Positions 3,370-16,138 of a stretch of DNA of 64,000 nt are shown here, one piece after another (the stretch's first letter is position 1; the number at the start of each line of letters is the position of its first letter). Source of the stretch: Halomicronema sp. CCY15110 (GTDB lineage: Bacteria; Cyanobacteriota; Cyanobacteriia; Phormidesmidales; Phormidesmidaceae); contig NZ_JACSWC010000349.1 of assembly GCF_016888165.1 (NCBI RefSeq), forward strand, positions 1 through 64,000, written 5' to 3'. Under the pieces are notes generated by a model, which ran no database searches, was not told where the DNA came from, and was given only the letters and a program-made list of their open reading frames with translations. The translations under genes and the position numbers were made by a program.

Positions 3370-3786
3370 GCCAGGCTAGGACACGTCTCCTCTCAGCGGG
3401 TTTTCCGGACGAGAGTCGTTGTGTCCAGCCGATGGTGATCGCTGCCGCCTCAGAGTCCGTTGCTCGACGAGTTTAGGCCGCACGGCAATAGCCCAACATT
3501 CAAATGGTTCTTTGGACGGCAACTTGTCATAGGGGGCGATCGCACGTTAGCCGTCATGCCTCCCTTTATTCATAAGGAAGGATCATCATCCAGAGCACCG
3601 GGATGGGCGAAATTGCTACCAAAAGGTGAGTGACTGTTGTTAAGATTTACCCCATGTGTTTAAGCAATTCCTAGAGGTGCCCCGTTTTAGCCATGGTTAG
3701 GCAACTGTCTAAGCCGCGCTGCCACGATCGCACTTGGCCTCTAGGGGCTTAGCCAAACACGTCTTTGTCTACTGATTGCGGAATAC
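3370..3786. other. Intergenic region without a recognisable gene
   Basis: 417 bases between two same-strand genes. I see one HIP1-like octamer and no clear terminator, tRNA or coding frame. The downstream gene starts at an ATG at 3787 without an evident Shine-Dalgarno site. Confidence 0.4.
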
Positions 3787-5745
3787 ATGTCCTCACTCCC
3801 GGAACTTTCGTCTCTACAGGCGCTCTCCCGTCGTAGTGTGCTCAAACTGTTCGGATTTGGTACGTTGGCTGCTGGGGTCGGCTACTCTCGATTTAGCAAA
3901 CCGCAACCCACGGTACATCATCAAGACACATTGGCCTTGCCCCGCCAGCCGGGGCGTGACCTCAAGGCGGTCGTCATTGGTGGAGGCTTGGCTGGGCTGG
4001 CGGCGGCTTATGAGCTGAGTCAACGGGGTGTCCGAGTGACCCTGCTAGAGCGATCGCCCCAACTCGGCGGCAAAATTGCTAGCTGGCCCATCCAGGTCGG
4101 CGACGAGCACTTCATGATGGAACATGGCTTTCACGGCTTCTTCCCGCAGTATTACAATCTGTTTGGCCTGGTGGAAGAGCTGCAAATTCGCCAGAACTTT
4201 AAGTTGCTAGACTATTATTCCGTTGTTTATAAAACCGGCTATCAGCCGGAAGTCTTTCGCCCCAGTCATTCCGCCTTTCCCTGGAATGTGGTGGATCTGG
4301 CGATCAACTCGCCCAACCGCTTGAAGTGGGGCATTAACCTGGTCAAGCTCAAGCATCTGGAAGTCTTTCGAGAAATTACCGGTTTCCGCACGCCCCAAAG
4401 TTTTGATCGCCTCGATCAAATCTCCGTCGCCGAGTGGGTCAAGGAAGACTTTCCCCAGGGGCTCTACGACCTGTATTTCTTGCCCTTTGCCAAGTCCAGC
4501 TTGAATGCGCCAGATGAGATGAGCGCTGGCGAACTCATGCAGTTCTTCCACTTCTATTTCTTTGGCAATCCCGAAGGACTCGCCTTTAACGGCACCTGCC
4601 AAGACATGGGCCGCAGTTTGGTCGATCCCATCGTGGCGGCCATTGAAGACAATGGCGGTCAGGTGATTACTGGGGCCACCGTGAGCCAACTCGACTGGCA
4701 AGATCAAAACATCAGCCAGGTCACTTATCACCAAGGCTCAGTGGCCGCGAATCCGGTGCCCTTTTGGGTCGATCGCAATCCCCTGCTGAGCACCGACGAG
4801 CTGGAATACTTTGGGGCGGGCGATCTCGTCTTCAGCCATCAACCTGGCAGCGTCGAAGCCCTTTCCCTCACCTGCACCCATCAGGGCTGCACGGTTCAAA
4901 AGACGGTGCAGGTCAGCACCGATGGCGGCTATGCCTGTCCCTGCCATGGCGCTGTATATGCCCAAGATGGCGAAGTGCTCGGTGGCCCCGCCCGTGAAAA
5001 CTTAACCCGCTATCGAGTGGTTGATCGCCAGGGTGACCAAATTCGGCTTTTGGCGCAAACGCCGGCTACTGGGGGAGCCACGGATGCTACGTTGGCGGCC
5101 GATTACTTTGTGCTCGCCGCCGACATTCCCGGTATCAAGCACCTCATGTCGCTGTCGCAGGGCCAGGTCGAGCCGACGGTGGCCTATCAAGTGGATCAGC
5201 TGCAAGTCGCTGACCCCTTTGCGGTGGGGCGGTTCTGGTTTGATCGCGACTTTGACTGGGAGCACAGCTGGTTTACCTCCCTCTCCGGCTATCAGCTAAC
5301 CGATAGCATTACGCTGTACCACCACATTCAAGAAGACTACATCGACTGGGCGGAGCGCACGGGCGGCAGTGTCGTCGAACTCCACGCCTACTGCTACAAG
5401 GAAAAAGAATTTCCCACCCAACAAGCCCTGCTCGACACCTTCCAGGCCGAGCTATTCGAGATCGTCCCCACCTTGCAAGACGCCACTCTGTTGCATAAGC
5501 AACTGGTGAATCAGAAAAACTTTGCAGGCTTCCCGCCGGGTAGCTATGGCGATCGCCCCGAAACCACCACCGCCGCGCCTAACCTGTTGTTCGCGGGCGA
5601 TTGGGTCAAGATGCCCTTCCCCTGCGGCCTCATGGAACGAGCCGTGAGTAGTGGTCTGCTCGCTGCCAATGCCGTCTTGCAACAAGAAGGCGCGCAGCGT
5701 CGGCCTATCTTGTCTGTCAATCCAGAAGGCGTGCTCAAAATTTAG
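3787..5745 (+). CDS. FAD-dependent carotenoid oxidoreductase with Rieske insert, CrtU/CruE-like
   Basis: A phytoene-desaturase-type flavoenzyme. The N-terminus has a twin-arginine-like motif (SRRSVLKLFGFG, residues 14-25). The dinucleotide-binding GGGLAGLAAA is at 65-74, and the FAD-closing segment LLFAGDWVK is near the C-terminus. A Rieske [2Fe-2S] site is inserted at about 362-388: CTHQGC, then CPCHG. Known CrtU/CruE enzymes convert the beta-rings of carotene into aromatic rings by desaturation and methyl transfer. The length (652) and layout agree with that group, so synthesis of an aromatic carotenoid such as synechoxanthin is a reasonable inference. Other amine-oxidase-fold enzymes with a Rieske insert remain possible. 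Single gene, followed by a convergent PPK2 gene. Confidence 0.72.
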   Translation: MSSLPELSSLQALSRRSVLKLFGFGTLAAGVGYSRFSKPQPTVHHQDTLALPRQPGRDLKAVVIGGGLAGLAAAYELSQRGVRVTLLERSPQLGGKIASWPIQVGDEHFMMEHGFHGFFPQYYNLFGLVEELQIRQNFKLLDYYSVVYKTGYQPEVFRPSHSAFPWNVVDLAINSPNRLKWGINLVKLKHLEVFREITGFRTPQSFDRLDQISVAEWVKEDFPQGLYDLYFLPFAKSSLNAPDEMSAGELMQFFHFYFFGNPEGLAFNGTCQDMGRSLVDPIVAAIEDNGGQVITGATVSQLDWQDQNISQVTYHQGSVAANPVPFWVDRNPLLSTDELEYFGAGDLVFSHQPGSVEALSLTCTHQGCTVQKTVQVSTDGGYACPCHGAVYAQDGEVLGGPARENLTRYRVVDRQGDQIRLLAQTPATGGATDATLAADYFVLAADIPGIKHLMSLSQGQVEPTVAYQVDQLQVADPFAVGRFWFDRDFDWEHSWFTSLSGYQLTDSITLYHHIQEDYIDWAERTGGSVVELHAYCYKEKEFPTQQALLDTFQAELFEIVPTLQDATLLHKQLVNQKNFAGFPPGSYGDRPETTTAAPNLLFAGDWVKMPFPCGLMERAVSSGLLAANAVLQQEGAQRRPILSVNPEGVLKI

Positions 5746-13409: not shown

Positions 13410-13589
13410 TCAAGAATTGTAGTGCTCTTCCGGTTTATAGACTTTAACCCAGCAGTTTTCGAGATGTCTGAGACGCTGAGAATGCCAGAATTGATGAGGG
13501 TTCAACCTCAATTTGTAGTGAGGACTAAAAACTGGTTGATTAAGGTAGGCCCAAAGTGGAAATTTATGGGGATTATATTGAGATTTCAT
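13410..13589 (-). CDS. Small unrecognised protein, 59 aa
   Basis: A short frame rich in aromatic residues and His, beginning MKSQYNPHKFPLWAYLNQ and ending in YKPEEHYNS. I do not recognise the family. The case for it being real is contextual: a textbook intrinsic terminator follows its stop codon directly, and the composition (many Trp, Tyr, His, Pro) is unlike chance frames in GC-rich DNA. The frame extends upstream to 13652 (80 residues), but the ATG at 13589 gives a more natural N-terminus. No strong Shine-Dalgarno site precedes either start, so a non-coding small RNA remains possible. It lies just downstream of the tmRNA gene on the same strand. Confidence 0.55.
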   Translation of the reverse strand: MKSQYNPHKFPLWAYLNQPVFSPHYKLRLNPHQFWHSQRLRHLENCWVKVYKPEEHYNS

Positions 13590-13757
13590 GGTGAGTGAGG
13601 ACAAAAGTTTACAGTGGAGAGGAAGCCCAATCGCTGACGCATCGACCATCAATGTCAGTGCTGTATCTCACAGTATAAACATGCCCAAAAACTAGAGATT
13701 GCCTAACAAACCCTAGTTAAAAAAATATTCAATAAAGAACAATAAAGTTCATAGAAA

Positions 13758-14145
13758 TGGAGCCGACGGGAGTCGAACCCGTGTCCGCTTCGAGTAGTAA
13801 CATTCCATTCGTTCACAGACTTAGCCTCTCTAACCCTCAAGGCGGGAACCGCTAATTATCCCTAGCGGTGGGATGCTCTAGTGGGGTCTTAGCCTTAAGT
13901 GCTACCAGAGGAACACTTGAGGAGCATCCGTTGGGGTTAAGTCCGCAATCCTTAACGGAGTCAGATCGCAGACGCTCGCTAACGTGAGTTAGTTTTTAAG
14001 CAGCAACAGGTGCAGCTTTACGAGCAAAAGGAACGATGTTGTTCGCAGTTACGTTTGTTTTGAGCCTGGATTAACGAGAGTAGACTCCCTCTCGGTCTGA
14101 ATCACAGAATGACTTTCGTCAAAACGTCGAAACCGTTACGGCCCC
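13758..14145 (-). ncRNA. ssrA: tmRNA (transfer-messenger RNA)
   Basis: Rescues stalled ribosomes and tags their products for proteolysis. The 5' end reads GGGGCCGTAACGGTTTCGAC, and its first seven bases pair with CGGCTCC at the 3' end, forming the acceptor stem. The TPsiC-like arm GGGTTCGACTCCCGTCGG precedes it. The discriminator A at 13758 is followed by TTT, so CCA is not encoded and must be added. The internal reading frame (13996-14046) encodes ANNIVPFARKAAPVAA followed by TAA, a typical cyanobacterial tag. One-piece, non-permuted form, 388 bases. Confidence 0.97.
13996..14046 (-). other. tmRNA proteolysis-tag reading frame
   Basis: Sixteen codons GCG AAC AAC ... GCT GCT then TAA, read as ANNIVPFARKAAPVAA. 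The hydrophobic ending PVAA is what ClpXP-type proteases recognise in known systems. Confidence 0.95.
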
Positions 14146-14522
14146 TAGTTACTAGATTTATTGTAACGCATTCATCTCTGAATCAAGGTGTGGGTTCCCC
14201 ATCTGGCCGCTCATGTCCGGGTTGTCTGGTCCTGCGCGGTTTGCTGGGCTGTGAACACGGTAAGTCGGCTGATTGGGCGATCGCGATCGTGACCGTTATC
14301 AGACCCATAATCTTTCATGAACTTAATTGTGTCCATTTTTACTATAATATTTACTTAATGATTGCTAATTATTTCTGGCCTGGCAGGTTCCCCCTACAGA
14401 GTTCAGAGGCATTGGCACGAGTTACGCCTAATCCAGAGCTGATACGGGCAGGGGGTGAGTCTGTCTTAAGTTAGCTCTTTCAAGGGCAGACTATGTTACG
14501 CCAAGCAGTAAGAGGTTGACCC
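14146..14522. other. Intergenic region upstream of the LPxxRPI repeat protein
   Basis: About 375 bases between the divergent tmRNA gene and the repeat-protein gene. An AT-rich core contains a plus-strand -10 box TATAAT at 14343-14348, about 175 bases before the coding start, implying a long 5' leader. AGAGG at 14511-14515 is the ribosome site. Confidence 0.45.
14160..14186 (-). promoter_or_regulatory. Candidate tmRNA promoter
   Basis: On the minus strand TTGATT (14181-14186) and TACAAT (14160-14165) are separated by 15 bases, with the -10 box about 14 bases before the mature tmRNA 5' end. The spacing is slightly short. Confidence 0.5.
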
Positions 14523-14966
14523 ATGACCAGCCAAAACGGCACTACCAACGAACAAGAGGCGACTCCAAAAGCATCCAGCAGCACTAAGTCCACCACGACT
14601 AAGTCTTCTTCTTCCCGTCGCCCAGCCAAGAGCACCTTGGTAAAAGCTGACGAGAAGGAGACTGAGGAAGTGGTGTTTGTCCTCGATGACATGACGCGGA
14701 TCACGCCGACTGAATATCTGCCCAATCACCGACCCATTGCTCTGAGTGAGTTTCATGTGGTTGGGAGTCTCGATATGGCCGGAGATCGTCCGATTATGTC
14801 TACGGAATTTGAAGTCGCGACTACCGATCTGTTGCCGGGACATCGTCCGGTCGCAGTGAGCACACTCCCAATCTCTGACTTACAGTTTTTGCCGGGGAAT
14901 CGACCGATCGCCCCTAACGATATTGTCGATCCGACTCCGGCAGTCCTTATGGGCTACTTAGACTGA
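14523..14966 (+). CDS. Protein with four exact 19-residue LPxxRPI repeats
   Basis: 147 residues, function unknown. The first 50 are a Ser/Thr/Lys-rich low-complexity stretch. The remainder contains LPNHRPI (66-72), MAGDRPI (85-91), LPGHRPV (104-110) and LPGNRPI (123-129), spaced exactly 19 residues apart, and ends in MGYLD. No signal peptide, membrane segment or catalytic motif is visible. The start ATG has AGAGG seven bases upstream. The gene has its own promoter-like box and a terminator right after it, so it is a single-gene unit. The periodic, exposed-looking motif suggests a binding or scaffold role, but that is inference. I do not recognise a named family. Confidence 0.85.
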   Translation: MTSQNGTTNEQEATPKASSSTKSTTTKSSSSRRPAKSTLVKADEKETEEVVFVLDDMTRITPTEYLPNHRPIALSEFHVVGSLDMAGDRPIMSTEFEVATTDLLPGHRPVAVSTLPISDLQFLPGNRPIAPNDIVDPTPAVLMGYLD

Positions 14967-15023
14967 TAGAGGTACAGCGAGTTCGCTAGCGAGCTTGGTG
15001 TCGTAATTCCCCGTAATTTTGTG

Positions 15024-15054
15024 AAGGACGTTGAGATTTATTTCAACGTCCTTT
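15024..15054. terminator. Bidirectional intrinsic terminator
   Basis: Perfect 11-bp stem AAGGACGTTGA/TCAACGTCCTT (15024-15034 with 15043-15053), 8-base loop. It lies between two convergent genes and overlaps the stop codon of the minus-strand glycosyltransferase gene. T-runs on either side are short. Confidence 0.7.
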
Positions 15055-16138
15055 ATTGATGACTGCCCAAAAAGTCTGCGATCGCGCCCGCAATCTCGGC
15101 ATTGCCAGTTTTGCTGATCGGTTGATCGCTTAACGGCGCTGCGGGGGTTGCCCGCAAAAAGTCCCAGGTGCCTTCAGCTAATTCTTGAGGCGACATGACT
15201 TGGTGATAGCTGTGATGTTTCATCGCTTCCACTAAGACTGGGCCTTCGGCGAAGTTGTCGCGGGTGACGGTGACAATCGGCAAGTCTAATCGGCAAGCTT
15301 CAGCGAAGGTACTGAAGCCCGGTTTGGACACCACGCGGCCACAAAAGGGCATGAAATCGACGGGCCGCAAAGTGTGATCATTGACTTTGCGCAAATTTGG
15401 CAGCGCAGGAGCCGCTCGATCAAAGGTGATGAACTGCCAGTCAGGAAAGTGGGCCAGATTTTTGTACGGGATGCCAGCGATTCCCAGGCCGCCAAAGGTT
15501 AGGAGAATGGTCTTCTCTTGCGGTGCGGTGAGTTGAAAGCGCGATCGCGCCTCGGTGGCACTCAGGCGGGGCTCTCCCCCGGTGAGGCCGACGTCGGTGA
15601 TGTGCGGAAAGGCACTCATCGGTTCATGAAAAGGCAGGCGAAAGAGGCGATCGCACTGGGCAAAGCAGTCGGCGATCCAGTCGGCCAGATCGATAAACTC
15701 GCCGCCCCAAGGACGATAGATAAAGTCCCAGCCAAAGTTACTCATCATCCAGCAGGGAATGTTGGCCGCTTTGGCGGCGATCGCCATCAGTGGCGGAATA
15801 TCCCCGAGGACTAGATCGACTCCGGCGGATTGCAGAAATGTGGCTTCTTGATCCACTAATTCTGCCTGGCGATCGCGAATGTTTTTGAGTGCCGCTAGGG
15901 TGCCCGCTTTGTCCATCGTGAGGCTATCTTGCTGGAGCACGCCAATATCCACCGCGACCTCACGTAACTGGTAGACCCCCTCAAAATAGCTCGATAACAG
16001 CCAACTTGGGGCCTTGGTCGCCAGAATCACATGAACATCGGGACAGAGCTGCTTCACTGTGGCGGCTACCGCCGTTGCGCGAGTGGCATGTCCAAAGCCA
16101 TGATTGCTGATGGCGACATACAGCGTTTTGGGGGACAT
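15053..16138 (-). CDS. MurG/UDP-glycosyltransferase-like (GT-B) protein
   Basis: About 361 residues with the N-terminal motif YVAISNHGFGHATRATA, typical of GT-B sugar transferases that resemble MurG and UDP-glucuronosyltransferases. The second half has LLTFGGLG and, near the C-terminus, VVSKPGFSTFAEAC, the acceptor/UDP-sugar-binding segment of that fold. Substrate unknown. The start at 16138 is chosen because AAGGAG lies five bases before it; an in-frame ATG at 16183 gives a longer, unsupported N-terminus. No membrane segment. The gene runs in the same direction as ftsH2 but a terminator separates them. Confidence 0.82.
   Translation of the reverse strand: MSPKTLYVAISNHGFGHATRATAVAATVKQLCPDVHVILATKAPSWLLSSYFEGVYQLREVAVDIGVLQQDSLTMDKAGTLAALKNIRDRQAELVDQEATFLQSAGVDLVLGDIPPLMAIAAKAANIPCWMMSNFGWDFIYRPWGGEFIDLADWIADCFAQCDRLFRLPFHEPMSAFPHITDVGLTGGEPRLSATEARSRFQLTAPQEKTILLTFGGLGIAGIPYKNLAHFPDWQFITFDRAAPALPNLRKVNDHTLRPVDFMPFCGRVVSKPGFSTFAEACRLDLPIVTVTRDNFAEGPVLVEAMKHHSYHQVMSPQELAEGTWDFLRATPAAPLSDQPISKTGNAEIAGAIADFLGSHQ

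Follow-up and report, generated by a model that had tools for sequence, protein, structure and literature searches.

A repetitive protein beside the tmRNA gene

The window analysed here, a stretch of 64,000 nucleotides of cyanobacterial DNA, carries beside its tmRNA gene an open reading frame whose product falls into short, evenly spaced units, and the question it raises is what so regular a protein does. The frame, taken from the open reading frame list, starts at an ATG and runs on the forward strand from 14523 to 14966, encoding a 147-residue RPI-repeat protein of the slr0476 family. A search of the organism's own genome found it in single copy.

All parts of the protein are given here in forward-strand coordinates. 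Residues 1-49 (14523-14669) form the Ser/Thr/Lys-rich tail that a sequence-only reading of the window had described, with 20 Ser/Thr and 8 Lys/Arg among the 49 residues, and are predicted to be disordered from their composition, AF2 pLDDT and dN. A conserved lead-in block follows (residues 50-65; 14670-14717), in which L54, D56 and R59 were invariant across 10 aligned rows. Repeat spacing and alignment then delimit four units: unit 1 (residues 66-84, LPNHRPI..., 14718-14774), unit 2 (residues 85-103, MAGDRPI..., 14775-14831), unit 3 (residues 104-122, LPGHRPV..., 14832-14888) and unit 4 (residues 123-141, LPGNRPIAPN..., 14889-14945). The protein closes with the C-terminal tail LMGYLD (residues 142-147; 14946-14963), defined by the alignments and modelled by AF2 as a short helix.

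In the translation the units begin at residues 66, 85, 104 and 123, so that the exact spacing of 19 first reported is borne out. The accompanying description of four LPxxRPI motifs was right about the number of units, but only two of them (LPNHRPI and LPGNRPI) fit that pattern, the others reading MAGDRPI and LPGHRPV; the core common to all four is RP[IV], not LPxxRPI. BLOSUM62 autocorrelation over residues 50-147 peaked at lag 38 (score 59) and lag 19 (47), while in 5000 shuffles the best-lag score never exceeded 35. The periodicity thus lies far above that of shuffled sequence, confirming the observation that first drew attention to the gene.

A class-wide family under constraint

At E <=0.01, 54 of 59 related genomes, counting the organism's own, had a match in a protein search. 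With an HMM built on 16 family members, matches were obtained in 239 of the 291 class genomes (215 of 261 when only the better assemblies are counted), and named matches included Leptolyngbyaceae, Nodosilinea, Acaryochloris and Thermosynechococcus, among others. Some of the genomes carrying the gene we take to be Thermosynechococcus BP-1 and Gloeobacter violaceus. When 194 genomes were drawn from the whole phylum, 73 matched, all of them from the class; the HMM gave no match outside the class in this draw, where the 20 genomes listed out of 121 non-matching ones comprised 16 from the class and 4 from outside it. Short forms of the gene are hard to detect, copies in two genomes of family f16 (G050 and G068) having been missed by the first HMM search and found later, and given these misses some apparent absences may be false.

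One profile matched both the window gene and its counterparts in two Synechocystis-like genomes (g55; G231 and G473), although gene order differs, with tmRNA beside the window gene and uvrB beside the Synechocystis-like copies. Compared with five relatives, the window gene had a dN over residues 1-49 two to four times that of the rest of the protein (for example 0.166 against 0.047), with dS saturated or undefined. We conclude that the RPI-repeat gene is a real, constrained gene. An unnamed protein that lacks a family model, yet is kept across a class under strong purifying selection, marks a real gap.

Searches among mobile elements gave no family match in phage sequences and, among IMG/VR contigs, 61 stretches that fit the pattern with no relative among them. 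Eight plasmid records, all from Nostoc, Calothrix or Aulosira, held weak paralogs annotated as 'hypothetical protein'. Plasmid-borne Nostoc paralogs at L224 (3875-4354) and L225 (3824-4231) have six units of IDGQRPI type and end in DYID or GYMD, not LMGYLD. Two further loci are unusual in layout: a nine-unit member (L192, 6039-6614) consists of 19-residue units that are nearly all near-identical and ends in DDYVD, and at L032 two divergent members of 285 and 156 aa lie adjacent to one another (3413-4270 and 4691-5161).

Unit number varies and the tail is kept

To describe the anatomy of the family we used 144 distinct proteins chosen for at least three RP pairs and a tail-like end, so that both features are partly built into the counts that follow. 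RP-to-RP spacing was exactly 19 in 436 of 545 cases, most of the others being 17, 20, 18 or 16, and within single proteins the spacing ranged from 16 to 20. The 677 units gave the consensus L-P-G-N/H-R-P-I/V-A-x-S-x-L-x-V. The proteins of this set ended in LMGYLD (93), LMGFLD (23) or LMGFID (11), with SMGFID, ELISFD and DYVD as rarer variants in the family. The window protein shows both family features, at least two RP[IV] units about 19 residues apart and a C-terminal LMG[YF][LI]D.

Unit number, the copy-number question raised at the outset, does vary across cyanobacteria, from 3 to 11 within the 144-protein set and from 1 to 11 when one-unit forms are counted. Three f16 genomes (L201-L203; start codons provisional) encode mini-proteins of about 50 aa with a single unit, and small one-unit copies were also seen in two other genomes (L226 and L227). 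These forms retain one RP unit comparable to unit 4 of the window protein, A-x-N, and LMGYLD or LIGYLD. Across the 16- and 101-row alignments Arg-Pro was invariant in the aligned units and the tail nearly so: in the larger alignment R70, P71, R89, P90, R108, R127 and P128 did not vary, and G106, P109, A130, N132, L142, M143, G144 and D147 reached 90%. The LMGYLD tail, which the first reading had overlooked, is the most constrained part of the protein and is kept even in one-unit mini-proteins.

No known family and no confident fold

Neither the profile search nor the structure prediction that had been proposed as checks linked the protein to anything characterised: the first revealed the class-wide family described above and the second yielded no fold match. 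No characterised family with the same repeat was found among Pfam, NCBIfam, PHROGs, PDB sequences or PDB folds. For the window protein itself nothing above cut-off or convincing appeared in Pfam, NCBIfam, PHROGs or PDB sequences, and no match came from searching the PDB sequences with a profile. Among 101 members, Pfam returned scattered weak matches only, one of them to Bactofilin, and the Pfam and NCBIfam matches included no CsoS2, EPYC1 or CcmM-type linker model. A text search of the literature returned no paper containing the family's motif strings and none pairing '19-residue repeat' with cyanobacteria.

With 16 alignment rows AF2 reached a pLDDT of 51.6, and with 101 rows a mean pLDDT of 66.9 and a pTM of 0.30. 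Confidence was about 85 over residues 51-90 and 40-44 over residues 1-30; each unit was modelled as two short paired strands, and residues 139-145 as a helix (pLDDT about 70). Using this moderately confident model as query, Foldseek found nothing in the PDB better than E 2.7, and VIA gave no Z of at least 2 among 47 chains. AF2 thus gave no confident globular fold.

One way to view such a protein is as a rigid beta-solenoid, in which 19-residue rungs stack, so that the protein would be a spacer or filament with a structural role and not a string of motifs. The predominance of the 19-residue spacing (436 of 545) would suit this, as would the paired strands of each unit and the pLDDT of about 85 over residues 51-90. 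AIDA-I is a protein of 19-residue beta-helix repeats, and its NCBIfam model (NF033176) weakly matched 6 of the 101 members, with a best E of 6.7e-5; the single weak Bactofilin match tends the same way. AIDA-I and the RPI family share beta propensity and the period of 19. However, the matches are weak, the window protein had no AIDA-I match in the NCBIfam scan, and we know of no Arg-Pro core in AIDA-I. The low pTM and the lack of a PDB fold match also count against a solenoid, and spacings of 16 to 20 inside single proteins, together with one-unit forms, are hardly compatible with stacking. We consider a rigid solenoid improbable.

Neighbours and transcription signals

The tmRNA gene lies divergently upstream on the reverse strand (13758-14145), and because the two are adjacent a role in ribosome rescue suggests itself. 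In the window's family all 27 loci had the divergent pair. However, tmRNA was near none of the 23 loci tested elsewhere, which nearly refutes a joint role, and the pair is divergent; ribosome rescue is thus hardly tenable. Linkage confined to one family also means that the tmRNA neighbourhood is not informative on function. Downstream of the tmRNA, a small reverse-strand ORF (13410-13652) had tblastn matches in 36 of 59 loci, with the core ...FPLWxYLxQPVFSxxYKxxLNPWxFW...LERCWxxxYxPEEH; matches in the opposite strand's frame were mostly interrupted by stops.

The uvrB group was present in 23 of 76 loci, with uvrB divergent at position -1 in 17, and this pairing could be taken to indicate a function in DNA repair. 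Against this, the window and most other loci have no adjoining uvrB, and in a genome where the RPI-repeat gene has decayed (G471) the adjoining uvrB is intact and open as far as the locus extends, making a repair role very unlikely. Genes resembling menD or prk (named by eye) precede the RPI-repeat gene in a few families. As no neighbour is general across families, the gene is probably its own unit.

The sequence-only reading had given the window gene its own leader and terminator beside tmRNA. The tmRNA does adjoin it, a -10 element, TATAAT (14343-14348, forward strand), is conserved in aligned upstream regions and would imply a leader of about 165 nt, the start site being placed from that element, and a strong terminator-like hairpin follows the gene (15021-15056, forward strand; -21 kcal/mol, z -7.2), but the hairpin has a weak T-run and is missing from the terminator scan. 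About 32 bp before the -10 element lies a candidate regulator dyad, GTTAT-N7-ATAAT (14295-14311, forward strand). Its core, TTAT-N7-ATAA, occurred exactly in 37 of 143 family upstreams of 250 nt, compared with 2.7 expected, and, when upstreams of 330 nt were used, in 35 of 59 from the window's family against 3 of 85 elsewhere. Such an architecture would suit an activator of the LysR type. Judging by the conserved dyad and its -10 element, the window gene looks regulated.

We compared these upstreams with the consensus for RbcR, given in an excerpt of PMC13249358 as ATTA(G/A)-N5-(C/T)TAAT. The best match upstream of the window gene had 2 mismatches, and 40 such matches occurred in the window against 38.4 expected. 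Across the family, 27 of 143 upstreams had a match with at most 1 mismatch, compared with about 14 expected, a count inflated by related sequences. The TTAT-N7-ATAA dyad was found upstream of neither rbcL nor ccmK in the window's genome (G000), nor upstream of rbcL in G008.

Orthology to slr0476 from gene order

Two Synechocystis-like loci share the order uvrB (reverse), RPI-repeat gene, formyltransferase, PD-(D/E)XK nuclease, AAA and methyltransferase, and at L214, the one locus on which Pfam was run in this respect, a CAAD protein comes next after the methyltransferase. Taking slr0477 to be purN, the order from uvrB (sll0459) to CAAD/CurT (slr0483) identifies the RPI-repeat gene, with the support of synteny, as the ortholog of slr0476 of Synechocystis sp. 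PCC 6803, the tag itself coming from synteny and tag numbering, not from sequence. Both likenesses, the conserved order beside uvrB and membership of the family by sequence, connect slr0476 and the window gene by way of the Synechocystis-like genomes. The flanking tags are given in excerpts of the literature, sll0459 as uvrB (PMC5101192) and slr0483 as CurT (PMC13353191).

The same kind of source, excerpts rather than whole papers, provides the record of slr0476. A table of the RbcR regulon lists it as 'unknown protein' together with rbcLXS, ccmK-N and sbtAB, with a change of -1.02 log2 in the sll0528 mutant (PMC12014562, 2025). The protein rises 2.3-fold in the absence of slr1037 (PMC4057619) and is among hexane-responsive proteins (PMC3479031), and slr0476 drops in iron deprivation (PMC3516471). 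The excerpts of these four papers give no function for it.

Loss together with RuBisCO

In six small genomes of family f31 (G437, G438, G472, G471, G400 and G427) RuBisCO is missing, reduced to a fragment or interrupted by stops, and of the carboxysome shell genes at most remnants are left. The RPI-repeat gene has gone the same way in 6/6: G437, G438 and G472 have no copy, and the copies of G471, G400 and G427 are broken. The G400 copy has changes in each of its four RP pairs, and in G471 two Arg have become Cys and the tail is lost. From their size and gene losses these look like nitrogen-fixing endosymbionts. Since endosymbiont-like genomes lose many other genes, the co-loss is weak evidence, support for a link with RuBisCO and not proof.

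Other candidate cases were set aside. Joint loss in G166 (psbA present, no RuBisCO, ccmK pair missing) was withdrawn as an assembly gap, because its contig begins partway through the syntenic block, without uvrB and with almost none of the flank. In the same genome (L209; G166:C1:2880000-2899000) a CcmM-like sequence forms the end of an open frame of 3052 aa, and ccmK, ccmL and the first part of ccmM are missing; the arrangement is probably a misassembly, given that this same contig lacks the block containing uvrB. G141, with no RuBisCO, BMC or clear gene match, is a fragmented genome. G412 and G051 gave no psbA/psbD match but keep RuBisCO, and since multi-copy psbA often fails to assemble we do not class them as non-photosynthetic.

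Several observations run against a role in CO2 fixation. RuBisCO is kept and the RPI-repeat gene unmatched in G412, G051, G092, G132, G008, G449, G470 and G442, several of them incomplete, and family f2, which from its inferred name comprises picocyanobacteria, fixes CO2 without the gene. To these are added the RbcR motif, at chance level in the window and mildly enriched across the family's upstreams, and the dyad, which precedes neither rbcL nor ccmK in G000 and does not precede rbcL in G008.

A rival reading is a more general phototrophic role, in PSII, antenna, thylakoid or stress and not specifically in CO2 fixation, with the RbcR listing reflecting broad co-regulation. In G400 psbA/psbD are broken and in G427 they were not found, the RPI-repeat gene being broken in both, and certain families have psb32-like and prk-like neighbours (named by eye), at 5 and 4 loci. 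The fall of slr0476 in iron deprivation, as excerpted from PMC3516471, would fit as well. However, the neighbours vary from family to family. Gloeobacter has no thylakoids, and the gene is also present in genomes we take to be Gloeobacter. We regard a general phototrophic role as unlikely, while ranking it first among the rivals, followed by a rigid solenoid, then DNA repair and lastly ribosome rescue.

A proposed connector in CO2 fixation

The reading we prefer, with a probability of roughly 0.35, is that the window gene of this Leptolyngbya-like cyanobacterium encodes an Slr0476 ortholog that serves CO2 fixation as an accessory, a flexible multivalent connector with RPI motifs and a docking tail. 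The link of the family to CO2 fixation is moderately supported, by the RbcR-regulon listing of slr0476 and the co-loss in the six f31 genomes. We also count in its favour the drop of slr0476 in iron deprivation and the AF2 model, with paired strands in each unit, a terminal helix and no confident globular fold. How the protein is built, how well it is conserved and how widely it occurs in the class are observations, whereas its partner, its docking and its role as a connector are predictions. The earlier suggestion of a repeated binding surface of unknown purpose, where binding is a prediction, agrees with the unvarying Arg-Pro, the free unit number and the lack of a matching characterised family, but it missed the tail, and the tmRNA context that accompanied it proved uninformative.

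In such a mechanism an Slr0476-type protein would be expressed together with RuBisCO and carboxysome genes, and would consist of a disordered, charged N-terminus followed by a string of 19-residue units. The Arg-Pro-Ile/Val core of every unit would dock into one shared groove of a partner, which we guess to be RuBisCO or a shell or CCM component, while the C-terminal LMGYLD peptide would anchor the protein at a second site. Valency would follow from unit number, which could vary freely as it does in other linker proteins. The idea of valency with an anchor comes from unit numbers of 1 to 11 alongside a tail kept in nearly all members; avidity plus anchor is likewise suggested by Arg-Pro cores that are nearly identical and free in number, by a head that is charged and disordered, and by the single fixed peptide at the end.

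A bolder version, which we hold to be doubtful, would make the protein an overlooked connector of ancient origin in the machinery by which beta-cyanobacteria fix CO2, tethering RuBisCO, carboxysomes or their regulators through an Arg-Pro-Ile code and an LMGYLD anchor; it would occur all the way from Gloeobacter to Nostoc and have been lost by the lineage with alpha-carboxysomes. If the protein does take part in CO2 fixation, a component is still missing from the parts list of beta-carboxysome cyanobacteria, which bears on the rebuilding of carboxysomes in plants.

CsoS2 and EPYC1 are repeat linkers of RuBisCO, and CsoS2 belongs to alpha-carboxysomes. The proposed connector would resemble them in manner of working only, as a disordered protein of variable length with repeated short motifs, a key Arg and a tie to CO2 fixation. 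Unlike them it is only predicted to bind RuBisCO, and neither family appeared among the Pfam/NCBIfam matches; moreover, CsoS2 is alpha-carboxysomal, whereas the RPI-repeat gene is missing from the lineage inferred to have alpha-carboxysomes. For the tail, the nearest analogy, again in working and not in sequence, is CcmN, which carries an encapsulation peptide at its C-terminus after a disordered stretch; the CcmN-like protein from L208 has no LMGYLD-like C-terminus, the likeness being that of a short C-terminal peptide following disorder. As a sequence family it had no match in any library searched, and the best reading of the RPI-repeat protein is as a linker, a type of protein that is already known.
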